Assembly (NCBI GenBank): GCA_030620005.1
Contig: JAUXAJ010000006.1
Coordinates: forward strand, 1 to 42,994
Reading direction: 5' to 3'
Origin: Promethearchaeota archaeon
GTDB taxonomy: Archaea; Asgardarchaeota; Lokiarchaeia; Sigynarchaeales; SOKP01
Length of the DNA: 42,994 nucleotides
A program made the translations under genes and the position numbers. Shown here in pieces: positions 3,852-42,994 of the stretch. The stretch's first letter is position 1, and the number at the start of each line of letters is the position of its first letter. The notes below the pieces were generated by a model that searched no databases, had not been told where the DNA came from, and worked only from the letters and a program-made list of their open reading frames with translations.

Positions 3852-5495
3852 TTGAAATTGGTAGAATCTGAAACAAAACAACTAGAAACTCGTATTGAAA
3901 GCGTGATCGCGTATCAGACAGGGGCACAGATAAAACAGAAAGGAAAAATATATCTTAACAAGGGAGAACAAATAATAACGATTACGGAATTGCCTGAATC
4001 GCTAGATAAAGAAAGCATGAGAGTAAAGGGCGTTGGAAAGGGGAAAATAATTAATATTGCAATCGAATTTAATTCCAAAAAGGAATACAAGACGGAAGAA
4101 CACGAAAAACTGCAAACCAAGAGAGAAAAGCTGGAAAGAGAAGTAAAAAGAAAAGAAATAGAGATAGAACGCCTAAACGAACAAATTGTCAAGTATAAAT
4201 CCGCTGAAGACGTTTTTTACGACGATTTTCCAAAAGCCTTCGCTGTTGGAGAAACAGAAATGGGCAGATTTTTCGATTTTAACGAAAAAATCAACGAGTA
4301 TATTGTTTCTAATACAGAGTTAATAGAATCCTTGAAAGAACAAGCCAAAGATATTCGAAAAGAACTTCGAGTTGTCTTAAATAAAGAATCTTATCTTGGC
4401 CCGATTGAAGAAATACACAATTTCTACGAAATTACTCTCAATATTAACGCTTTCCAGGAAGGAGACTTCGAGTTAGAAGTTCGCTATACAATGGGAAACT
4501 GTTGGTGGCAACCGTTCTACGACGTCTCGCTAAGCGAAGAAAATTTTGCTTTACTCACAATGATGGCAAATGTACATAACAGGACGGGGTTAGACTGGGA
4601 AAACGTCGAAGTTGAAATTTCAACAGCTTCTTTAAAACCAATTTCGTTAGTGAAGCCTACTCCAATGATATTAAAAGAATATTCCCCTCAAGCTTTTTTT
4701 GGTAAGCTTGTAGGTGAAAGAGGTGGTGATACGCCAGCACCTCTAATGAAATTGTCCTCTGCTTCAATGGGTCTCAAAGATAGTTTTGAAATGGACGACA
4801 TGGAAAAAGAGATTGAAGGTGAGATCGATTTAAGAGAAGAAAAACCCGCAATTGAAGATACTTACGCGGAAGTGTCAGAAAATATTGGAGTTCAATCCTT
4901 TAAGATTCCAAATAAAATTGATATACCAAGCGATGAAAACCCACATCCAGTCAATTTAACTGTTTTAAAACTAGAAGCTGAAAAAAAATATTATTGGTCG
5001 TGCGAAGCACCAGAAAATGTTATTATTCAAGATAAATTAATGAATGAAGATCTCCTTTTACTCGCAGGAAATGTCAAGATATATTATTTAGAAGAATTCC
5101 TAGGCGAAACAAGCATTCCAATCATTGCTCCAAAGGAAAGATTTAAGCTCGGCACGAGAGTTTCCTACGATTTAAAGATTGATAAAAAACTTATCGACAG
5201 GTCAAAAGGCAAAAAAGCTATCAAAGGAAAATTGAAGAATAATTACGAATATAAAATAACGATTAAAAATCTAAGCGATGTTAGTGAGGATTTAATCATA
5301 TTGGATAGAATTCCCCACTCAAATTCAGAAAACATTAAAGTTGAAATTGAAGATATTGAACCTGAACCGGATAAAAATGAGTTGGGAGTTCTCAAATGGA
5401 AGCTTAACCTAAAAGGTGTAAAAGATAAGGTCATTAATTATAAATATTTTGTTGAATATAAGAAGGGAATAATAATAACTCCTTCTTTACCTTGA
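3852..5495 (+). CDS. DUF4139 domain protein (mucoidy-inhibitor-A-like), paralogue 1
   Basis: 547 residues, read from a TTG at 3852 for lack of an ATG. The order is an N-terminal DUF4140-like beta region (residues about 15-75), a charged coiled coil (about 80-170), then the DUF4139 beta domain with the diagnostic stretch NRTGLDWENVEVEISTASL. There is no signal peptide, so a cytoplasmic location is likely. Eukaryotic and bacterial relatives are poorly characterised; bacterial MuiA was named for an effect on mucoid growth. The gene is followed 67 bases later by a full-length paralogue, with which it shares long identical runs such as SLDKESMRVKGVGKGKIIN. The two probably arose by tandem duplication and may form hetero-oligomers through the coiled coil. 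Confidence 0.8.
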   Translation: MKLVESETKQLETRIESVIAYQTGAQIKQKGKIYLNKGEQIITITELPESLDKESMRVKGVGKGKIINIAIEFNSKKEYKTEEHEKLQTKREKLEREVKRKEIEIERLNEQIVKYKSAEDVFYDDFPKAFAVGETEMGRFFDFNEKINEYIVSNTELIESLKEQAKDIRKELRVVLNKESYLGPIEEIHNFYEITLNINAFQEGDFELEVRYTMGNCWWQPFYDVSLSEENFALLTMMANVHNRTGLDWENVEVEISTASLKPISLVKPTPMILKEYSPQAFFGKLVGERGGDTPAPLMKLSSASMGLKDSFEMDDMEKEIEGEIDLREEKPAIEDTYAEVSENIGVQSFKIPNKIDIPSDENPHPVNLTVLKLEAEKKYYWSCEAPENVIIQDKLMNEDLLLLAGNVKIYYLEEFLGETSIPIIAPKERFKLGTRVSYDLKIDKKLIDRSKGKKAIKGKLKNNYEYKITIKNLSDVSEDLIILDRIPHSNSENIKVEIEDIEPEPDKNELGVLKWKLNLKGVKDKVINYKYFVEYKKGIIITPSLP

Positions 5496-5571
5496 TTAAA
5501 TTCAAGTAACTTACGGGTTATAAAATGTTAAAATTAAATTATGATATGGAAAGAATGAGAAGTTGATAAGC

Positions 5572-7200
5572 ATGGAAAGCGAAGCAAAAATTCTAGAAAG
5601 CTCAATTAAAAGTGTAATTGTCTACCAAAAAGGTGCCCAAATAACTGAAACCGGCACGATTAATCTCATAAAAGGAGAGCAAATCATTACTATCACGGAA
5701 TTGCCGGATTCTCTCGATAAAGAGAGCATGAGAGTGAAGGGAGTTGGAAAGGGAAAGATCATCAATATTTTGGTAGAATTTAACTCAAAAAAAGAATATA
5801 GGAAAGAGGAACACGAAAAGCTACAAAAAGAACGAGAAAGGACCCAAAAAGAAATAAAAAAGGAAGAGCAAAAAGTATCTCGGATAACTGAACAGATAGC
5901 TAAGTTAAAATCAACAGAAGATAAATTTTATTCGATTTGGCCAAAAGCATACGCGTATGGAGAAGCTAAATTGGCTAATTTCATAGAGTTTAACGAAAAA
6001 ATAAGCGAAAATATTAAGAAAAAAACGAATTTAATAGATTCATTGGAAGAAAATATTAGAGAACTCCGTAGAAAGCTTCAAGTAACGCGAAATAAGATGT
6101 CTAAACTCGGCCCTGTTGAAGAAATACACAATTTTTACGAAATTAAATTAAATTTAAATGTTATAGAAGACGGAGAATTTATTATTGAAATTAGGTACAC
6201 GATGACCCAAGCTTGGTGGATTCCCCACTACGATATTTCTTTAAGAAATAATAACGCTCGTTTAACCATGTACGCCAACGTTTACAACAGAACGGGCTTA
6301 GATTTTGAAAACGTGGATGTCGAGATCTCTACTGCTTCTTTAAAACCCATATCCTTGGTGAGGCCAAATCCCATGATATTACAAGAATATGTCCCGCATG
6401 TGTATAAAGCTAAAAAAGAAATGCGTGCTTATAGCGGTAAGGGTTTCTTGAAATCCGCACCATCGCCCAAGTTAGAAGAAAAAAAGTTAGATCTCTTAAT
6501 GGACTTCGACGAGGAAGAAGAAGCTTTCATTCCAGAAGAAGAACCAATGCCAGAAATCGAAGAAACCTACGCAGAAGTCGCAGAAAATATTGGTGTCCAA
6601 TCGTTTAAAATACCAGACAAGCTTACCATTCCCAGTGATAAGAATCCCCACCCCGTCAATTTAACAGTTATAGAATTGGAGACCGAAAAGAAGTATTTCT
6701 GGAGCAGCGCCGCCTCAGATAACGTGATAATAAGGGACAAATTTATAAACGGCGATTTACTATTACTTGCGGGAAATGTTAAGATATACTACTTAGATGA
6801 GTTTTTAGGTGAAACAACCAATACCATAATAGCCCCTAAAGAGGAGTTTAAACTTGGAACGAGAGTTTCTTACGATTTAAAAGTTGACAAGAAATTAATT
6901 GACCGAAGCAAGGATAAAAAGGTAATTAAAGGTAAAATAAAGAATAATTACGAATACAAGATCAGCATAAAGAACTTAAACAATGTAGCTGAAGATTTAA
7001 CGATTTTTGATCGAATTCCTCACTCTTCGTCTGAAAACATCAAAGTTGAAATCGAAACAATTATCCCAAAGCCAGATAAGAAAGAACTTGGCGTTCTAAA
7101 ATGGAAATTTAATCTCAAGGGAATCGAAGAAAAAAGCATTCAGTATAAATATTTCGTGGAATATAAAAAAGGAATGTCAATAACTCCATCGTTACCATGA
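5572..7200 (+). CDS. DUF4139 domain protein (mucoidy-inhibitor-A-like), paralogue 2
   Basis: 542 residues from ATG 5572 (a TTG nine bases upstream is the alternative). The architecture is the same as in the preceding gene: DUF4140-like N-terminus with VIVYQKGAQITETG, coiled coil rich in K/E, then DUF4139 with NRTGLDFENVDVEISTASL. The conserved tryptophan of the DW(E/N) motif is F here. An acidic, low-complexity insert (about residues 290-335) occurs in both copies but differs in sequence, so the insert evolves faster than the folded parts. The spacing suggests an operon with the first copy. The function is unknown. Confidence 0.8.
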   Translation: MESEAKILESSIKSVIVYQKGAQITETGTINLIKGEQIITITELPDSLDKESMRVKGVGKGKIINILVEFNSKKEYRKEEHEKLQKERERTQKEIKKEEQKVSRITEQIAKLKSTEDKFYSIWPKAYAYGEAKLANFIEFNEKISENIKKKTNLIDSLEENIRELRRKLQVTRNKMSKLGPVEEIHNFYEIKLNLNVIEDGEFIIEIRYTMTQAWWIPHYDISLRNNNARLTMYANVYNRTGLDFENVDVEISTASLKPISLVRPNPMILQEYVPHVYKAKKEMRAYSGKGFLKSAPSPKLEEKKLDLLMDFDEEEEAFIPEEEPMPEIEETYAEVAENIGVQSFKIPDKLTIPSDKNPHPVNLTVIELETEKKYFWSSAASDNVIIRDKFINGDLLLLAGNVKIYYLDEFLGETTNTIIAPKEEFKLGTRVSYDLKVDKKLIDRSKDKKVIKGKIKNNYEYKISIKNLNNVAEDLTIFDRIPHSSSENIKVEIETIIPKPDKKELGVLKWKFNLKGIEEKSIQYKYFVEYKKGMSITPSLP

Positions 7201-13622: not shown

Positions 13623-14858
13623 TTACTTCTTCCGTTTTGCGTCAGTTCCGACTTTTTTTGGAACGCCCTCTTCCACCACTACCTCTTCTTTTTCTTTCAC
13701 TTCTTCTTTCTTGAAAGGTTTAGAGGGCTTAGAATCGTCGAACGGGGTCTCACACACCCAACACATGTTTTCCAAATCGCTCAACATTCGAGCGCAGTTT
13801 TCGCAGTATAATACATCACATTCGGGGCAAATATAAATGTTAAAACGACCTATTTTTCCCTTACATACCAAGCAAACCTTCTTTTCTTTTGAAATAGATA
13901 CTTCTTCTTCAGTAATTTTTTGAGTTCTAGCAAAAGAGCTTAAGAAATCTTTCAATCCTTCTTTTTCCTCTAATTCAGGTTCGTGTTTTAAAATCCTAAT
14001 GAATTTATACAAAAAGTAAGTTTCAATTAAATGTGCTGCAAAAACCAATAATAAATCAGTAATAGGTAATCCAATGATTAGATATAAAGCAAACATGAAC
14101 CAGCAAAAAGAAATTGATAAAATGCCAACGCTAAACCAATAAATCGCAGCTCGAGAAAAATATTTTGGGTTAACGAGTGATGGAGCCATCATCAAAAGCG
14201 TGCCAAGTATATAGAATATAGGAGCGATTGATAAGGGAACAATATTAAGATTTTTTATTGAATCTTGATACAATAGCAAACCGTGCATTATAAGAACAAA
14301 ACCAAAAAAAATTACCGAAGAAATCGCCTTAAATTCAATTTTCGAATATTTTGTAAGCAAGAATAGAAGGATTGTTAAAAATGATATAAAAAATATCGCA
14401 ATAATAGATACAACAACATTCCATAATAACTCAAATGGAAATATAAACCAAAATATTATATAAGATATAATATTAATTGCGAAAATTATCGAAATAAGAA
14501 ATTTCGTGCGATTTAAAGACATTTCAACAGCTAAGAAGAAAAGAAAATATCCAATATAAGCAAATAAAAGACTCCAGAAGGTAAAAATTTGGTAATTTAT
14601 ATTATTTATATCAAAAATGCCATAAAAATCATTTTGCATGTAAATCCCTTCAATTTGTATTTCCCATAAAAAAACCACTACTTTGTGAAGTGCCCATCCG
14701 AAAAATAAAGATGAATATCCAAATAAAATTAATCTCTCGTTGCGATCTTCCCTCTGCGCACCTCTATAAGCGTAAATCAACCCACACATGAGTAATAACG
14801 TAATCGTTACGCCCCATAAAAATCGTTCCACGGGGTTCCAAATCATTACATATGCCAT
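13623..14858 (-). CDS. Multi-TM membrane protein with C-terminal C4-C4 zinc-binding domain (paralogue 2)
   Basis: 411 residues with eight to nine membrane segments over residues 1-300. A cytoplasmic tail follows with four CxxC pairs: C329/C332, C344/C347, C352/C355, C366/C369. It closes with a highly charged K/E tail. It shares with the 943-2145 protein the junction ITEEEVSISKEKKVCLVCKG (only conservative changes), the YICPEC knuckle, CWVCE and the NPKYF motif after a TM segment. The order and spacing of ligands are conserved while the membrane part has diverged strongly, which suggests the zinc domain is under tighter constraint. Function unknown. Confidence 0.7.
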   Translation of the reverse strand: MAYVMIWNPVERFLWGVTITLLLMCGLIYAYRGAQREDRNERLILFGYSSLFFGWALHKVVVFLWEIQIEGIYMQNDFYGIFDINNINYQIFTFWSLLFAYIGYFLFFLAVEMSLNRTKFLISIIFAINIISYIIFWFIFPFELLWNVVVSIIAIFFISFLTILLFLLTKYSKIEFKAISSVIFFGFVLIMHGLLLYQDSIKNLNIVPLSIAPIFYILGTLLMMAPSLVNPKYFSRAAIYWFSVGILSISFCWFMFALYLIIGLPITDLLLVFAAHLIETYFLYKFIRILKHEPELEEKEGLKDFLSSFARTQKITEEEVSISKEKKVCLVCKGKIGRFNIYICPECDVLYCENCARMLSDLENMCWVCETPFDDSKPSKPFKKEEVKEKEEVVVEEGVPKKVGTDAKRKK

Positions 14859-20006: not shown

Positions 20007-21965
20007 TTAATTGTTTAAAGCTTTCAAGTCTCGTAACAACCACACGGTCATTCTACCCTTTCCACGATGGGCCCAAGCATAATATGGAATCGCCAGAAAG
20101 TCTTGTTCGATTTTTTGAAGGTTCTCTTCACCTGCAACACGCTTAAGATAATGAATATGTCCCTTAATAACAACAATACCATTGAGCATGTCTTTACGAT
20201 GTTCAATCATGAGTTTAGCATCATCGTCAATGAATAGTCTAAATAGATTTTCAACCTCATTATCTGGCCATTCAACGCAATAAACGATAGGCCCACGTTC
20301 AAGGGCTACTTTTCCTTCATCTTCTCTAACTTTTTCGTGCGCCACCACGCGTTTAATAGGCATTGGCAAGTTTAATTCGAATACATCGCCATCATTCCAA
20401 GTGCGTTCAATAAAAACATAGCCATTTTTTATATCAAGATCAATAGGTTCGCTATTTACTTTAAGGCTTACTTTCGCGTCATTTTTGTTCAAATAACGAT
20501 ACAAATCGCTTGGCACTGGTTTGTCTTGAGTCCATCCCGGAATTCGAACAGCAGTGATAAAATCTACACTTCCTTGAAGCTTAACAGTGACTTTAACATC
20601 ACCGTTCCAAGGATAGTCCGTTTCTTGAATAATTGAGACATCCTTTCCATTAATGTTAACTGTGGCAGTACTCCCGACGAATAGATTAATATACAACATT
20701 TTTTCTCGCGAAGCATATATATAATCCGGAATAGAAGCCATGAAACGCGTGATGTTTGAAGGACAGCAAGCGCAATCGAACCATGGACTCCTTTCGTGTC
20801 GTCCTCTCGAAGCAAGCGGGTTTGGATAGAAAAATGACTTCCCATCCAAAGAAACTCCTGAGATTAGACCGTTATACAATGTTCTTTCTAAAACATCAAT
20901 GTATTTGGCATCTCCGTGCAATAAGAAAAGACGATGATTCCAAAACACGTTACCAATGGCAGCACAAGTCTCGTTATAAGTTCTTATGTTTGGCAATTTG
21001 TAATCTCTACCAAATGCTTCACCACGACGCTGAGAACCTATACCGCCCGTTATGGAAAGCTTTTTATATACTACATTTTCCCAAATACGCTTCAATGCTT
21101 TAATATATTCTTTATTATCAGTAAGTGCTGCGACATCAGCCATACCGGAATACATGTATGTTGCCCGAACAGCGTGTCCAACCGCTTCGTCTTGCTCAAC
21201 GACCTTTTCATGAGATTGGTTATATTCAAGGCGCTCAAGGCCCACATTAGGAAAAATTTCCATGGCTAGTTTCATATATTCTTCAACCCAATCTTTGGAA
21301 CCACGAATGTCAAGGAAAAACTTGGCCAGTTTTAAGTATCTTTCGTCATTAGTTACTAGACACAAGCTTGCTAATGCCATTTCAATAACTTGATGTCCAG
21401 GCACGCTTTCAATTTTGCCGGGACCGAACTCTTTATCAATTAAATCGGCAAGTTTGATGGCAACATCAAGTAATTTGCGTTTACCAGTTGCCTGATAATA
21501 TGCTATAGCACCTTCTATAAGATGTCCGGCATTATATAACTCGTGGCTCATAACAGAAACCAATTCCCATCTTTTTTTTCCCGCAAAAATGTGTGGTTTT
21601 TCAGGATTTATCGTCCGCGTCGTGTATAAATAACCGTCTTCTTCCTGAGCTGCGGCGATTTTATCGATGATATTGTCTATATATTTTTCTAGCTTAGGAT
21701 CGGGTTTCACATTAAGCGAATACGCTGCACCTTCAATGATTTTAAAGACATCCGAATCATCAAATGGAAAGCAAGGCTCTCTATCAATGTCAATCAATCC
21801 AGCCGCTTTCGAGAAATTGTCAATGCGTCCTGTCTTTTCGCACATCTCAAGCGCGTATGGTATTGTCACTTTACGGTTTGTCTCAATTCTGGACGACCAA
21901 AATTGATCAATAATTTGAACTTTAGTAAATGGGACTGGTTTAACGGGATAATCGTATTTACTCAT
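20007..21965 (-). CDS. GH127-family beta-L-arabinofuranosidase (DUF1680)
   Basis: 652 residues, no signal peptide, so intracellular. Glycoside hydrolase family 127 removes beta-L-arabinofuranose from plant-type glycans using a zinc-bound cysteine nucleophile. All ligands of the characterised enzyme HypBA1 (E322, E338, C340, C417, C418) have counterparts with the same spacing: E316 (GEAFG), E332 and C334 (YNETC), C400 and C401 (ACC). The substrate could also be a related arabinose-like sugar, since GH127 and its sister families are broad. No other sugar gene flanks it, and it is isolated between a degraded stretch and the MBL genes, so arrival by transfer is plausible. Confidence 0.93.
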   Translation of the reverse strand: MSKYDYPVKPVPFTKVQIIDQFWSSRIETNRKVTIPYALEMCEKTGRIDNFSKAAGLIDIDREPCFPFDDSDVFKIIEGAAYSLNVKPDPKLEKYIDNIIDKIAAAQEEDGYLYTTRTINPEKPHIFAGKKRWELVSVMSHELYNAGHLIEGAIAYYQATGKRKLLDVAIKLADLIDKEFGPGKIESVPGHQVIEMALASLCLVTNDERYLKLAKFFLDIRGSKDWVEEYMKLAMEIFPNVGLERLEYNQSHEKVVEQDEAVGHAVRATYMYSGMADVAALTDNKEYIKALKRIWENVVYKKLSITGGIGSQRRGEAFGRDYKLPNIRTYNETCAAIGNVFWNHRLFLLHGDAKYIDVLERTLYNGLISGVSLDGKSFFYPNPLASRGRHERSPWFDCACCPSNITRFMASIPDYIYASREKMLYINLFVGSTATVNINGKDVSIIQETDYPWNGDVKVTVKLQGSVDFITAVRIPGWTQDKPVPSDLYRYLNKNDAKVSLKVNSEPIDLDIKNGYVFIERTWNDGDVFELNLPMPIKRVVAHEKVREDEGKVALERGPIVYCVEWPDNEVENLFRLFIDDDAKLMIEHRKDMLNGIVVIKGHIHYLKRVAGEENLQKIEQDFLAIPYYAWAHRGKGRMTVWLLRDLKALNN

Positions 21966-23520: not shown

Positions 23521-25146
23521 TTAAATTCTTTCTTTTTCCTTATTGACCAATGATTCAGCTAGTTTTTTGATTTCAATGCGATTAAGTTTTCCAGTTTTCG
23601 TCATTGGTAAGGAATTTACAAAATTTATGATGCGTGGTTTTTTATATGAAGCAATTTTAGCTTTACAAAACTCAGTAACTTCTTTTGAGGTCATTTTTTC
23701 ACCAAGTTCGAGTTTGATGAAAGCGGTTACGGTCTGACCCCAAATATTGTCGTGTTTACCCGTTATTGCCACATTCTCAATTTTTGGGTGTAATCTTAAT
23801 ACATCTTCTACCTCACCTGGGTATATCTTTTCTCCACCTGATATAATCAATTCACTCGTCCTCCCGATGTAATAAACATTTCCTTCTTCATCTATTTTAC
23901 AAAGATCACCCGAATGAAGCCAACCGTCTTTATTTAAGACCTGCTTTGTCATTGCATCATCTTTATAATACCCTTTCATTATGCTATCTCCTTTATAAAT
24001 CATTTCACCGACTTCACCCATGGGAATATCATCTCCCATCTCATTAACCACTCTCATTTTTATGCCAGCTACGGTCTGTCCAATATACCCTTTTTTGATT
24101 TTTGGGATATCATCATGAACCATAAATGCAACCGTAGAAATCCCTATTGTTTCAGTACTTCCATACCCATCCACAAGAATCTGGTCTGGAAACCTTTTTA
24201 AAATCTTGATTTTCATTTCCTTAGACATTTTTGCTCCACCAGAAGTAATCATAGTAAGTGAACTAAGGTCAAATTTGTCCATATCCGAATAATTTAACCA
24301 AAGTCGATACATTGTAGGCACCATAAAGATGGTGGTGACTTTTTCATCTTGAATGATTTGACATATCTCTTTTGGATTAAAACTTTTGCTAACTGGAAAT
24401 ATCATTAAGTTCCGCAATCCGAGATTTGTAAGGACTGGCATTAATCCACTCACATGATAAATTGGTGTTGGAATTAAAAATTTCATCCTCATACCGTGGG
24501 GTGGTATTAATGCTTTTGCGGGTATCTTCTTTTTCTTTATTAATTCCATTCCATGTTTAGGAGTCATATATGTTGCATTATATAAATTAAAATGAGTCAA
24601 CATCGCTCCTTTTGGTGATCCTGTAGTACCACCTGTATAAAGTAATAAACCTATCTCCTCATCGTCCACTTTAATGTCTGGATTGGTCAATTCTTTATCT
24701 TGAATAATTTTTTCATAATTAATCATTCCATTAAATTCTTCATCTTGTGGCGCATTTACGACAAATATATATTTAATATCTTCAAAATTAGCTTTTAATA
24801 ATTCACGAGTGATTTCAACAAAATCTTTATCTATAAATATTCCCTTAATGTCTGCATTTTCATATATAGATTTAAATTCCGTCGATCCATATCTAATATT
24901 GATGGGTACAGGAACGACTTCGATTTTTTGGAGTCCAAACATTATTTCTAAATATTCAGGTGAGTTATATAGTAAAATTCCATATTTTTCTCCTTTTTTT
25001 ACACCCAGATCCAAAAAAACTCTAGCTATTTGGTTTGCACGGTTGTTTAATTTATTATATGTGTAAACTTTATCTCCATGCTTTACTATCTCGATGTCGC
25101 CAAAATTCTTAACTAATTTTTCCAATACTTTATTTGCAAACCCCAT
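23521..25146 (-). CDS. Acyl-CoA synthetase (AMP-dependent synthetase/ligase family)
   Basis: 541 residues with the full ANL-superfamily motif set: the P-loop TGGTTGSPKGAMLTH, GYGSTETIGIS, GWLHSGDLCKIDEEGNVYYI, the hinge IGRTSELIISGGEKIYPGEV and the catalytic lysine near the end in TKTGKLNR. It should adenylate a carboxylic acid and transfer it to coenzyme A. The length and the YGSTE type fit medium- or long-chain fatty acid or cyclohexane/aryl acid ligases; the exact substrate is not readable. It is the most downstream member of the minus-strand acyl-CoA cluster. Confidence 0.93.
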   Translation of the reverse strand: MGFANKVLEKLVKNFGDIEIVKHGDKVYTYNKLNNRANQIARVFLDLGVKKGEKYGILLYNSPEYLEIMFGLQKIEVVPVPINIRYGSTEFKSIYENADIKGIFIDKDFVEITRELLKANFEDIKYIFVVNAPQDEEFNGMINYEKIIQDKELTNPDIKVDDEEIGLLLYTGGTTGSPKGAMLTHFNLYNATYMTPKHGMELIKKKKIPAKALIPPHGMRMKFLIPTPIYHVSGLMPVLTNLGLRNLMIFPVSKSFNPKEICQIIQDEKVTTIFMVPTMYRLWLNYSDMDKFDLSSLTMITSGGAKMSKEMKIKILKRFPDQILVDGYGSTETIGISTVAFMVHDDIPKIKKGYIGQTVAGIKMRVVNEMGDDIPMGEVGEMIYKGDSIMKGYYKDDAMTKQVLNKDGWLHSGDLCKIDEEGNVYYIGRTSELIISGGEKIYPGEVEDVLRLHPKIENVAITGKHDNIWGQTVTAFIKLELGEKMTSKEVTEFCKAKIASYKKPRIINFVNSLPMTKTGKLNRIEIKKLAESLVNKEKERI

Positions 25147-27726: not shown

Positions 27727-28971
27727 TTATAATTTATCTGCTTCTTCTTTTGTTGGCCCTCTCACAGATGGAGGAATCATTCTGGTGTCAACTTCTTGCT
27801 TGAACAGGTTTCGTCCGATAAACAATTTTAATATGTCATTGGAACCTCCAGCTATTTGCATTAAGGCACCATTCTTCAAAATCGTTCCAACACCCGTTTC
27901 TTGAAGGTATCCATCACCACCAACTATAAAGAGCGCATCTAAAGCATTCTCAGTCAAAGTTTGAGTGCCAAATATTTTTGCTATAGAAGATTTCACAGCG
28001 AAAGTGAACATGTCAGCTTCTCCCGTATCCAATAAATGCGCCAGATAATAGATATACACGCGAATAAGGCTCATATTCATGGAAATGTTAGCCATTCTTA
28101 ACTGAACGCCATTATATCGGGAAATAGGCATTCCAAATTGGACTCTTCTACGGCCATAGGCGCGAGCCGTTTCTAATAAGTTTTTATTAGAGCCAACAAC
28201 GCTTGCAATTCCTAATCGTTCGATATTTAGCGCAGATGTCATTACAGTCCACCCATCACCAGGATCTAATATCATATATTCTTTTGGAACTCTCACATCT
28301 CGATATCTTATTACAGAATTAGCCATTTCCACATCTCCTATGAGTGTATTGATCTTTTCAATGGAGATTCCTGGAATATCCGTTGGTACTAAGAAGGCCG
28401 TTAGATGTCTATGAAGCCTTTTCATATCTGGATCTGAATTTGCGTACAGCATGTGATAATCGGATATCGCTCCTAATGTTATGAATCGCTTCCAGCCGTT
28501 AAGGACCCACTCATCACCATCTTTCTTTGCACTCAATTGAATGCCTGAAGCGTCATTACCGACATCAGGCTCAGTTACTGTAATACTGGCCCATTTATCA
28601 CCCTTTATTATTGGTTTCAAGAGTTTTTCTTTTTGAGTTTTAGTACCAAAGAGGTGAATTGGTCCTGCTCCAAAAACGCTAGTTAATAAAGGGTTTATAT
28701 TTATCCCGGAGCGTCCAACTTCTTCATTAAGAATTGTATATCCAGCAAAGCCTTTATCTCGACCTCCAAATTCTTTCTCCGCTAAAACCATTAACGGATG
28801 AAAACCCTTTTCAACACATAATTTTGATGCCCCCCATTGAATTTCCATGGGATCTTGGTTTTGTTCAAGCATCTTAGTTGTTAGGGGAAAAAGTTCAGTA
28901 TCAATAAAATTCTCTACTTCGTCGGCAAATGCTTTAGTTTCTTTATCCCACCAAGGCATGTAATCAAACAT
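27727..28971 (-). CDS. Acyl-CoA dehydrogenase
   Basis: 414 residues with the FAD and substrate motifs of the family: ASITVTEPDVGNDASGIQLS, GWKRFITLG, RRVQFGMPISRYNGVQLRMA and GGDGYLQETGVG. The common catalytic glutamate in the C-terminal YEGT motif is replaced (IAGGSND, G375). However, E251 in ALNIERLG is at the position of the alternative catalytic glutamate of isovaleryl-CoA and long-chain dehydrogenases (LDLERL). This suggests an IVD/LCAD-like active site. It would desaturate an acyl-CoA and pass electrons to an ETF-like acceptor. The stop of the preceding small gene overlaps its ATG. Confidence 0.92.
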   Translation of the reverse strand: MFDYMPWWDKETKAFADEVENFIDTELFPLTTKMLEQNQDPMEIQWGASKLCVEKGFHPLMVLAEKEFGGRDKGFAGYTILNEEVGRSGININPLLTSVFGAGPIHLFGTKTQKEKLLKPIIKGDKWASITVTEPDVGNDASGIQLSAKKDGDEWVLNGWKRFITLGAISDYHMLYANSDPDMKRLHRHLTAFLVPTDIPGISIEKINTLIGDVEMANSVIRYRDVRVPKEYMILDPGDGWTVMTSALNIERLGIASVVGSNKNLLETARAYGRRRVQFGMPISRYNGVQLRMANISMNMSLIRVYIYYLAHLLDTGEADMFTFAVKSSIAKIFGTQTLTENALDALFIVGGDGYLQETGVGTILKNGALMQIAGGSNDILKLFIGRNLFKQEVDTRMIPPSVRGPTKEEADKL

Positions 28972-39441: not shown

Positions 39442-39521
39442 AATAATTTTAAATTTATTTTAAAAATTAATAAATCTTGTTTTTTTCTGCTATTTTAACA
39501 ATTAAAATTTAATGAAGTTTA

Positions 39522-39809
39522 CTACTCATCTTTAATTCTTCTTAGTTCTATTTTAACTGCGTTCGTTCGATCCATGCATTCTAACTCGACAACTTCAGGG
39601 TCTTCAACCCACTTTTCAGGAAAGGACCCTCCAAACTGGAGCATCATGATATAAGGAAAAATATCGTGATAAAAAAATCCACACAATCCTCCTGTATTAT
39701 GACCACTTAATTCTAGTTTATCTCCTTTTTTATGGCCAGCATTACAATATCCTTTTACGTCTTTTATGGTACCAACAATACGATACCCAACTTTTAACTT
39801 TTCAACCAT
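39522..39809 (-). CDS. TIGR04076-family small protein
   Basis: 95 residues with a good GGAGGT ribosome site nine bases upstream. The family pattern is clear: YCNAGHKKGDKLELSG, GGLCGFFYHDIFPYIMMLQF, GGSFPEKWVEDPEVVELECM and D-R-T-N-A-V near the end. The family is made of short cysteine-containing proteins common in anaerobes, of unknown function. Compared with the usual family it keeps C22, C42 and C78. Confidence 0.8.
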   Translation of the reverse strand: MVEKLKVGYRIVGTIKDVKGYCNAGHKKGDKLELSGHNTGGLCGFFYHDIFPYIMMLQFGGSFPEKWVEDPEVVELECMDRTNAVKIELRRIKDE

Positions 39810-39968
39810 TATACTATACCTCCTTTTAATTGATTTGAAATAGATTAGAAATGATTTCTTATTATAAAAACAATTATATTGTTATTTTTTTAACGATATA
39901 AAAATATTCATTGGCATCAATGTAAATAAAGAAATCAGTTGATAGAAGTCTTTATTCAAAAGATTCAC

Positions 39969-40820
39969 TTAAAAACCAACTAATTGCTTCAATTTGTTAA
40001 ATTCTTCTTCTTGAGCAATTTCCTCTTCGGATTTATGATAGTCTTCATCTTGAGCCCACTTCAAATCTCTTAGTTTAGAATCAACGCATAAACCTAAATC
40101 AGTAATGAAATAGTTTTTAGCTGGCGAATATTCCTTATAAAACCCGTTTTTCTTTAACACCGTAAAAAAATTCCATTCTTTTCCCTGTTCTGCCTTGCAT
40201 TTATTAAAACAGCCTAAAATCTTTTTATGAATAACGCCTTCATTGTCTTCAGTTCTTTTGTTAAAAATAATGCCTTTATCATTTCGAACAAATAATAGAA
40301 ATTTGTATAACGGGTCGTTTTGCATTTTTTCCTGTAATTCCCCGACCACGTTATTAAAATCTTCCTTTTCCATCTCCATATCATCCAGTTCTTTAATTGA
40401 TTTCCTTGCAAAATCAAGACACTCACTTAACTTCTGATCGAAATCCTTGGATTCTTCTGCAGGCACCATGTTTTCTATAATCTCTACAAGCTCTGCTTTC
40501 TTCCTTTTTCTCATCCAAATCTCGTCCTTTAACAAGTCTATTGTTTCTTGATATTTTTGGTAAAAAAAATTCTCAAATTTATCAATATGAAATTCATAGC
40601 TTTTAACAGGTTTTAAATCCTTAACTAGCCCTAATCTTATTAAAGGTTTGATTTCAGCGTAATTTCTTTGAATGCAACTCAAAAAAACAGGGATTTTTGA
40701 AGTTGATTTACAAAAATAACTAATTAATTCAATATTTTTCAAATTTTCCTTTAATATATTCTCAGCTACATGTTCGAGCGATTCAAGTGATTTAAGTGAT
40801 TCTTCCATGTTTTGTTTCAA
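39969..40820 (-). CDS. Uncharacterised, largely helical protein
   Basis: 283 residues without signal peptide or membrane segment. The N-terminal 80 residues are amphipathic helices with FCKSTSKIPVFLSCIQRNYA then LIRLGLVKDLKPV, which looks like a helix-turn-helix followed by a linker. The middle is a charged coiled coil (about 110-180), and the C-terminal part has NGFYKEYSPAKNYFITDLGL, a second possible winged-helix wing, before an acidic tail. A regulator is possible. Its promoter region carries an 11-base inverted repeat, 37 bases upstream, and the transposon lies about 145 bases away. Confidence 0.5.
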   Translation of the reverse strand: MKQNMEESLKSLESLEHVAENILKENLKNIELISYFCKSTSKIPVFLSCIQRNYAEIKPLIRLGLVKDLKPVKSYEFHIDKFENFFYQKYQETIDLLKDEIWMRKRKKAELVEIIENMVPAEESKDFDQKLSECLDFARKSIKELDDMEMEKEDFNNVVGELQEKMQNDPLYKFLLFVRNDKGIIFNKRTEDNEGVIHKKILGCFNKCKAEQGKEWNFFTVLKKNGFYKEYSPAKNYFITDLGLCVDSKLRDLKWAQDEDYHKSEEEIAQEEEFNKLKQLVGF

Positions 40821-40897: not shown

Positions 40898-40965
40898 CTT
40901 AACTCTAATATTAAAACAATTCAAAGAAATGACATTAATTCTCTATACCCATTTATAGCCTTTTT

Positions 40966-41010
40966 GTCAAGAAAACCCCCTGGTCGCTTGCGCCAGTGGG
41001 ATGAATTGAC
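40966..41010 (-). repeat. Right-end hairpin of the ISC element
   Basis: On the plus strand GTCAA (40966-40970) and TTGAC (41006-41010) flank an imperfect hairpin (40976-41000) with arms CCCCCTGG and CCAGTGGG around a TCGCTTGCG loop. Subterminal hairpins of this kind are bound by TnpA, which cuts a short site about ten bases beyond the foot. The pairing of the outer pentamers is compatible with the guide/cleavage-site interaction described for IS608 and ISDra2. Confidence 0.65.
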
Positions 41011-41022
41011 AATAATAAGATT

Positions 41023-41415
41023 TCAACCTTGGTTTTCAATATATTGGCTAATGATCTTAATAGAGGTATTGCCTATAGACGTGCAAAAATACCCATCACT
41101 CCAAAAAGGCTTCTTTTTCCAAAACTCGCTTGAAAGCTCGGGGTGCTCGTGCCAAATTTGTCTCGTGCTCTCCATCTTCAAGCGCCGAACAATTTGAGAG
41201 GGTGAAAGTCGTGGAAGGCTTGATACGAGCACGTGAATGTGGTCACGTTCGACTTCCATTTTCTTGATAGAAAAATACGATTTCTTGGCAATAAGGTTGA
41301 AGATCTCTTTAATTCTCTGACCATATTCGACCAAGAGAGGGTTGCGGTATTTTACTACAAAATTGAAATGAAAGACGATCAAGAACTTTATCCTATTTTT
41401 TCGTTGATACTCCAT
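41023..41415 (-). CDS. tnpA: TnpA, Y1 HUH single-strand transposase (IS200/IS605 type)
   Basis: 130 residues, the normal length. The HUH motif is intact (D58-H59-I60-H61 in VERDHIHVLVSSLPRLS), as are the conserved FWSDGYFCTSIG and the catalytic tyrosine Y125 near the end (IISQYIENQG). The enzyme excises and inserts the element as circular single-stranded DNA. It starts three bases after the iscB stop, and the last codons of iscB supply its ribosome site (GGGGGG), so the two are translationally coupled. All catalytic residues are present, so the element should be autonomous. Confidence 0.93.
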   Translation of the reverse strand: MEYQRKNRIKFLIVFHFNFVVKYRNPLLVEYGQRIKEIFNLIAKKSYFSIKKMEVERDHIHVLVSSLPRLSPSQIVRRLKMESTRQIWHEHPELSSEFWKKKPFWSDGYFCTSIGNTSIKIISQYIENQG

Positions 41416-41418
41416 GTC

Positions 41419-42744
41419 TTACCCCCCTCGACAGATCCCCTTGCGCCACCGAACCGGCTTGACCGATGCTATCCTGACAGGTCTGTCGAGTCCATCTAAC
41501 TTGATGTATGTACCGTAGTTTTGCATTCCCTTGACATGACGATGCTGTCCGTCATGACTCACGATATCGTTCGGCTGGTATTTGTAGCGCTGCCGACGAA
41601 TGCTTCTTCGACCCTTTGAAAGCTTGTGTCCCCTGTATTTCCGCAGATTTTCACCGCTTCGTTGCTTGTTCCGGGAACTCCTGCCGCTTGAGAGGTCTTT
41701 TCCACCAGCACGCTCGCCTGTACGGATATCGAGATATTTTGCATCGTAAAACTTTTGTAATGAACGATTATTACGGCGAACTTGTTCTAATTTCAAGAGC
41801 GTTGCTCGTTTTTGAATAGTTCCTCCCGCAATAACAAAGGCATCATTCGCATGTGTTTTCGAGAGACCTAAAGCAGTTCGGTCTTGCTTGGTCACATGCC
41901 CATAGGTGTGGTTGCATTCAAGTGCATTCACCAACCGCCAGCGAACCGTGGTCATGAACGTTTCAGGCTTGAATGACTTGAGAGATGGGTGCCAGCCGTG
42001 AAGAAAACCGCCTTCTTGATGGTTGCGGGGGATGTGGCATTGAATGCATAGCGTGATCAAGTTGCCGGGTCTATCCGTCCGATCTCCACGCCAGTACCCG
42101 ATATGATGCACCTTCAATATTTTCTGCGTGGTTCGGTTCGAGCAATTTGGGTTTTGGCATTCATGATCATCGCGGTGCATCACATACTCACGGATATTCA
42201 TGAACCCGTATTGATCGCCGTGTTGATACTCCGCGCCATAAATAGAAGGATTCTTAATCTTTTGAATGTCAAAGCTTGCGATTTCAATGGTCTTTTTCGC
42301 GATGGGGAGCATTAACTCAATGTGCTTTACCACACGAAGGTGCGAATCGTACTTGTGGTGGATCGAGGGAGCCAGCCACCCTTCTCGTCGACGCCTGTTA
42401 TCAAAACGGGGCTGACGGTATTGCTTACGCTGGCGTCTCTGACGCCGATTCGTTCTTTTTTTCGTGAGCCGTTCGGACATCTCGCTGAGAAGCACTAATT
42501 CACCGCAGAGCACTTCTTTTTTGCCGGTTTTTGCTGAAAATCCAATCACTTCATAGCCAGAATCAATGCCGAGCTCGATCGGTTGCTTGTAGCCGCTTGA
42601 TCCGTGGAGCAATTGAATGGCAAAGACCGGGTCGTGGCGAAAAATCCGTGCCTTTCCCTGCTTTAACAAGAGTCGAGCCTTGCGCGGTGAAGTTGGCATG
42701 AGGGGTTTCCCGTGGTGATTAATCACGAATACCGTTTGACTCAT
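41419..42744 (-). CDS. iscB: IscB, RNA-guided RuvC/HNH nuclease (Cas9 ancestor)
   Basis: 441 residues. The order is PLMP domain (G-K-P-L-M-P at 12-17, SPRKARLLLKQGKARIF), RuvC-I with D61 (ELGIDSGYEVIGF), the arginine-rich bridge helix (95-120), RuvC-II with E154 (KTIEIASFDIQKI), then an HNH domain inserted in the RuvC fold. The HNH part has zinc cysteines C196, C201, C233, C236 and catalytic H213/H214 (LKVHHIGYW). RuvC-III has H298 and D301 (KTHANDAFVIAGG). A basic C-terminal domain for target-adjacent motif reading closes it. Both nuclease centres look intact. Family members cut double-stranded DNA with an omega RNA encoded upstream. Confidence 0.95.
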   Translation of the reverse strand: MSQTVFVINHHGKPLMPTSPRKARLLLKQGKARIFRHDPVFAIQLLHGSSGYKQPIELGIDSGYEVIGFSAKTGKKEVLCGELVLLSEMSERLTKKRTNRRQRRQRKQYRQPRFDNRRRREGWLAPSIHHKYDSHLRVVKHIELMLPIAKKTIEIASFDIQKIKNPSIYGAEYQHGDQYGFMNIREYVMHRDDHECQNPNCSNRTTQKILKVHHIGYWRGDRTDRPGNLITLCIQCHIPRNHQEGGFLHGWHPSLKSFKPETFMTTVRWRLVNALECNHTYGHVTKQDRTALGLSKTHANDAFVIAGGTIQKRATLLKLEQVRRNNRSLQKFYDAKYLDIRTGERAGGKDLSSGRSSRNKQRSGENLRKYRGHKLSKGRRSIRRQRYKYQPNDIVSHDGQHRHVKGMQNYGTYIKLDGLDRPVRIASVKPVRWRKGICRGG

Positions 42745-42987
42745 TTTTTTTCATTTTTTCATTTTTTTTTCTATTTCATTGGTTTGCCGGCTAAAATAAA
42801 GCCTGCCTCCCGAAAGAGTGGTCCACATCGCCAATATTATCGCGGGTTTCCAGAAAGTTTCCCTTCGGTTGTCAGAAGCACTGTTCCTATCCCTGCAGAA
42901 CTGTTTAACCCCTGACCGTAGTGTATGGGACTTGTGGAGCATCCCGATGTATCTTAGTACCTATGCATTCCGCGATAACGTAGCCCC
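42745..42987 (-). ncRNA. Probable omega RNA (HEARO-type) of IscB
   Basis: The 240 bases upstream of iscB, read on the minus strand, are non-coding, GC-rich and strongly foldable. Stems seen by eye: CGGTCAG (42918-42912) with CTGAC-AA-CCG (42875-42866); inside it GTTC/GAAC (42898-42901 with 42883-42886); a GGGA/TCCC hairpin at 42945-42927; GGCT/AGCC (about 42803 to 42788). IscB omega RNAs lie in this place, with the guide taken from DNA beyond the left end, here cut off by the window edge. Start and end of the RNA are estimates; about 30 bases before the ATG are A-rich and probably outside. Confidence 0.7.
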
Positions 42988-42994
42988 GTCAAGT

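Follow-up and report, generated by a model that had tools for sequence, protein, structure and literature searches.

An ISC-type IscB-TnpA transposon at the end of an Asgard archaeal contig

The window analyzed in this work, a 42,994-nt stretch of contig JAUXAJ010000006.1 from a Promethearchaeota archaeon, almost certainly carries an IS200/IS605 transposon of the ISC type, inserted into Asgard DNA. Its two protein genes and its right end are intact, but the contig breaks off before the left end. IscB is an RNA-guided nuclease related to the ancestor of Cas9, and ISC transposons are reportedly called both bacterial and archaeal in one work. Read along the minus strand, the omega-RNA comes first, followed by iscB, tnpA, the right-end hairpin and ATAAA:

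42816..42994, minus strand: HEARO / omega-RNA, 3' part only (positions 63-211 of the 211 in model RF02033)
41419..42744, minus strand: iscB, an ORF of 441 aa (NF040563)
41023..41415, minus strand: tnpA, IS200/IS605 Y1 transposase of 130 aa (HIH at 59-61, Y125)
40964..41012, minus strand: right-end hairpin, ATTCATCC ... GGGGGTTTTC within a TTGTCAA/TTGACAA stem (from the fold and the signature in relatives)
40952..40956, minus strand: ATAAA, presumed target (TAM) flank just beyond the right end (spacing as in relatives; TAM of OrufIscB)

The element is another instance of the already known IscB and TnpA type. As in ISC transposons described before, iscB and a Y1 tnpA form one unit, with an omega-RNA 5' of iscB, a hairpin end and an ATAAA-type flank; the differences are that the host is an Asgard archaeon and that the left end lies beyond the contig. 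ORFs, family profiles, aligned residues and host genes agree with the preliminary description of an ISC element with intact catalytic residues in an Asgard contig.

The iscB and tnpA genes

IscB matches the NF040563 guided_IscB family above its curated cut-off and contains the RRXRR and HNH domains of Pfam, while its fold match spans residues 2-440. The PLMP N-terminus, the split RuvC domain with its HNH insert and the catalytic residues are all present. From the N-terminus, the motifs are presumably PLMP, RuvC I (D61), an arginine-rich stretch, RuvC II (E154), HNH (H213, H214, N228), RuvC III (H298, D301) and a C-terminal domain. The nuclease residues had been named correctly from the sequence beforehand: D61, E154, H213, H214, H298 and D301 are invariant across an alignment of 37 sequences. 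The characterized proteins OgeuIscB and OrufIscB share the same fold, and their RuvC and HNH residues align with those of the window IscB (alignment shown for 11hx). Identity to OgeuIscB is about 25% over the structural alignment, and OgeuIscB is 496 aa long versus 441 aa in the window.

TnpA was assigned to NF033573 transpos_IS200 (E 1.2e-35, above the curated cut-off) and to the Pfam family Y1_Tnp (E 2.4e-33). Its H59/H61 and Y125, again as first proposed, align with the HIH motif and the tyrosine of the solved IS200 transposases 2ec2 and 2f4f, so that both the HUH (here HIH) motif and the catalytic tyrosine of an IS200/IS605 Y1 transposase are present. Only three bases separate the two genes (TAA-GAC-ATG, from the iscB stop to the tnpA start), which places them in one unit. 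An SD-like GAGGGGGG lies just 5' of tnpA and overlaps the 3' end of iscB, and translation of the two genes is probably coupled.

The omega-RNA and the boundaries of the element

At a permissive threshold, HEARO (RF02033) matches 42994..42816 directly 5' of iscB with 64.6 bits (E 3.3e-12), the match being cut off at its 5' side. Rfam at the gathering threshold reported nothing in the window; the score falls below the gathering cut-off of 83 because the contig end truncates the match. Folding 42745-42994 as a single strand gave an unremarkable result (z -1.58; 12 of 200 shuffles fold equally well), too weak to serve as proof of an omega-RNA, and the Rfam match was used instead. The structured omega-RNA region proposed earlier is thus upheld by the covariance match, whereas single-sequence folding fails to show the structure.

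Full-length HEARO matches at gathering score, each over positions 1-211, were found in 14 of the 16 relatives' loci scanned; L016 and L017 gave no match. We aligned the window with 13 of the 14 matching relatives, leaving out L006. The alignment predicts 59 base pairs. For 35 of them, one or more sequences differ at both partners of the pair; the window holds 36 of the 59 pairs, and 25 of these 36 show such a double change (both counts made without a shuffle control). The HEARO segments of all 13 aligned relatives begin with GTCAA. Twelve of these 13 full-length relatives have 79-133 nt before the CTACGTTA box, the thirteenth (L004) having no such box, whereas only 11 nt precede it in the window. 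Therefore, the contig lacks some 70-120 nt of the omega-RNA together with the guide and the left end, and the element is incomplete. The preliminary description had called it complete, a claim that fails with a HEARO match that starts at model position 63 at the very end of the contig.

The opposite boundary is better preserved. The right-end hairpin sits 3' of tnpA, its two sides carrying ATTCATCC and GGGGGTTTTC. We scanned for this signature, with ATAAA not required by the pattern, in 48 near full-length relatives of at least 49% identity; this set includes L104, which represents the same locus as L001, and three loci with at most 40 nt downstream (L018, L030 and L085). Ten relatives matched. 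Two of them, L003 and L020, were dropped, as their matches lie more than 1.3 kb from iscB and have neither the ATTCATCC context nor ATAAA in the printed strings. Eight of the 48 thus have the signature 3' of iscB/tnpA (L011, L022, L024, L027, L029, L043, L082 and L086), and it is absent in 38. L071, at 39% identity, shows it too and was added by eye, making nine relatives with ATAAA. With a looser pattern, 10 of 158 loci gave a match. The signature was also seen downstream of more distant IscB proteins (39-40%) in L060, L063 and L068, which are Thiotrichaceae and Marithrix loci.

In the window, 15 nt separate ATAAA from the TTTT of the hairpin; the corresponding distance is 12-15 nt in the nine relatives, which are not independent (L022, L027 and L043 share a bin, and L024 is closely related to them). 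By composition, ATAAA is expected at 0.0046 per position on a strand this rich in AT, a chance of about 2% over the four allowed offsets, which makes the motif modest evidence alone. The best TAM of OrufIscB is ATAAA (PMC13180657), a likeness to the flank of the window element. Judged from the sequence, the element probably extends some 10 bases past 40966 on its right side, up to ATAAA at 40956..40952. In our reading, ATAAA belongs to the flanking target in the host, and the junction reflects a genuine insertion. The right-end pattern was found in none of nine genomes close to the host; the pattern has CC as its last two bases and the window AC, so the window's own end would escape it and the result carries little weight.

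Composition, relatives and probable source

The composition of the element is foreign to the surrounding genome, as first noted. IscB has a GC content of 0.49 and a GC3 of 0.53, and TnpA a GC3 of 0.48, versus 0.26-0.37 for GC3 in 20 host ORFs; the codon scores correspond to z values of -4.5 for IscB and -2.3 for TnpA. In other loci, iscB lies above its flank in L001 (0.39 versus 0.33) and below it in L003 (0.49 versus 0.61), therefore iscB may deviate from host composition in either direction.

Among the matches listed, the closest relatives are the Logan proteins P0002 (IscB, 77% identity) and P0121 (TnpA, 82%), both of unlabelled source and with a longest contig of 1856 bp. Pairing of IscB and TnpA relatives by equal longest-contig size, which is indirect, gave five cases: 1856 (P0002/P0121), 2790 (P0007/P0124), 2484 (P0009/P0135), 30520 (P0057/P0134) and 78295 (P0056/P0164). 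Organism labels were available for 25 of the best 120 of 4508 IscB relatives, 15 Asgard and 10 bacterial. The Asgard labels, which derive from metagenome bins, include Promethe-, Odin-, Heimdall-, Hod- and Thorarchaeota.

The IscB tree comprised 80 rows (P0002-P0060, 10 further listed proteins, 10 loci and the window, with L001 left out) and was built by a quick method with SH-aLRT support only and rooted on one row. The unlabelled P0002 is sister to the window (SH-aLRT 100). Both fall in a 40-row branch with an SH-aLRT of 94, slightly short of the starred level; every one of the 15 Asgard rows lies in this branch, and the 20 bacterial rows all lie outside it. The other 24 rows of the branch, P0002 among them, are unlabelled. 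In the TnpA tree (133 columns, 86 rows; 83 inner branches, 17 of them starred), the window clusters with P0121 and P0122 (SH-aLRT 96). Since the window IscB belongs to a branch with all Asgard and no bacterial rows, the donor seems likelier to have been another Asgard archaeon. Of the recent entry from another lineage suggested earlier, the foreign composition stands, but the IscB tree places the window among Asgard relatives.

Direct recent transfer out of a bacterium would also account for the foreign codon use, and the bacterial loci L024 and L027 have the same iscB-tnpA order with TnpA proteins at 58-59% identity. We consider such a transfer unlikely, given that all 14 labelled IscBs at ranks 2-59 of the best 120 of 4508 are Asgard and that no bacterial row enters the window's branch, although most of that branch, closest relative included, carries no label.

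We give about an even chance to a broader proposition: that a TnpA-carrying ISC lineage has become resident in Asgard archaea, with autonomous IscB-TnpA elements circulating among several Asgard groups, those of the labels named above, and not as single arrivals from bacteria. Any IscB match was found in 15 of 227 Asgard genomes searched, with the close type (65%) only in G001. This genome, which carries a locus titled Hodarchaeota, sets the phylum to which all 227 belong; other matches over more than 300 residues reach at most 50% identity. TnpA matches occur in 27 of the 227 genomes, the best-scoring at 35% identity, and none was found in G001; the TnpA-linked form of IscB was not seen in this set. 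The Asgard-labelled IscB of L001, a Hodarchaeota MAG, is 65% identical to that of the window and has a full HEARO upstream, but differs in having no TnpA match at E 1e-5 within its 11-kb locus. Asgard residence of the TnpA-linked form would thus rest on the window contig, one labelled TnpA (P0141, Promethearchaeota) and the unlabelled metagenome pairs.

The near search of plasmids gave no match, and the phage search with the TnpA protein returned 84 records, all below 60% identity and the best at 44%. Elsewhere, another type of IscB (about 47% identical) seems to have expanded, with 43 match rows in G002 (the genome of L053, Borrarchaeota) and 13 in G177, some rows being pieces of one gene.

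Predicted activity and host context

By analogy with the known families, TnpA, an HUH/Y1 enzyme, would excise and insert the element as single-stranded DNA by means of the end hairpins, beside ATAAA. The HEARO RNA would load IscB, with its 5' guide read from the host DNA flanking the left end. IscB might then cut both strands, with RuvC and HNH, in matching DNA followed by ATAAA, which is the resealed donor site, and repair after the cut would restore or copy the element. The window could instead hold a decaying, immobile remnant whose nucleases are out of use, for the left end is unseen and there is no sign of a burst nearby: among the nine genomes close to the host, only G157 (38%) and G121 (30%) have IscB matches, both distant. 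With both frames open, the conserved catalytic residues retained and the right end intact, we regard decay as improbable.

HEARO and IscB have already been reported from archaea (PMC9755519; PMC12988326), and the first of these papers describes TnpA linkage of IscB as uncommon. The window adds to Asgard archaea an IscB with its own adjacent tnpA, the arrangement so described (PMC9755519). No description of an Asgard IscB element was found in a literature search of open PMC papers, as far as their retrieved text goes. The existing picture of the origin of Cas9 is unchanged by this element; what it offers is a specific right end and a target motif with which the cooperation of IscB and TnpA can be probed. 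Its hosts, the Asgard archaea, are thought to be the archaea nearest to eukaryotes.

The contig is Asgard, as the preliminary description had it, according to two protein genes and one DNA stretch that are nearest to Asgard archaea. Two of the 227 genomes of the G001 phylum, G120 and G113, have an acyl-CoA dehydrogenase with 87% identity to the one encoded at 27727-28971. The nearest labelled relatives of the acyl-CoA ligase (23521-25146) belong to Promethearchaeota (76%) and Helarchaeota (62-64%), with unlabelled relatives closer at 77-80%. A DNA stretch within 39455-39822, some 1.1 kb away from the element, has counterparts of 70-77% identity in 5 of the 14 genomes searched. In the same search the element itself gave only short matches at 42735-42785, an A-rich stretch, which were taken as low complexity. 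The gene adjoining the element (39969-40820), used in a search for an empty site, had no match in any of the nine close genomes, a result uninformative as evidence. A misjoin of a bacterial ISC element to an Asgard contig is highly improbable: the element does sit at the contig edge, with a GC3 unlike that of host ORFs and beside a gene whose unmatched status proves little, but the join follows immediately after a full right-end hairpin with ATAAA at the relatives' spacing, the host DNA is recognizably Asgard up to about 1.1 kb away, and the IscB falls in the Asgard-rich branch.

Several other genes of the contig were noted. Two neighbouring similar ORFs lie at 3852-5495 and 5563-7200, the first with DUF4139 and DUF4140 and the second paralogue-like by eye. 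The ORFs at 943-2145 and 13623-14858 (400 and 411 aa), the former having no Pfam match, are apparently paralogues as well, with hydrophobic stretches and, by eye, similar cysteine-rich ends. A GH127-type beta-L-arabinofuranosidase is encoded at 20007-21965.
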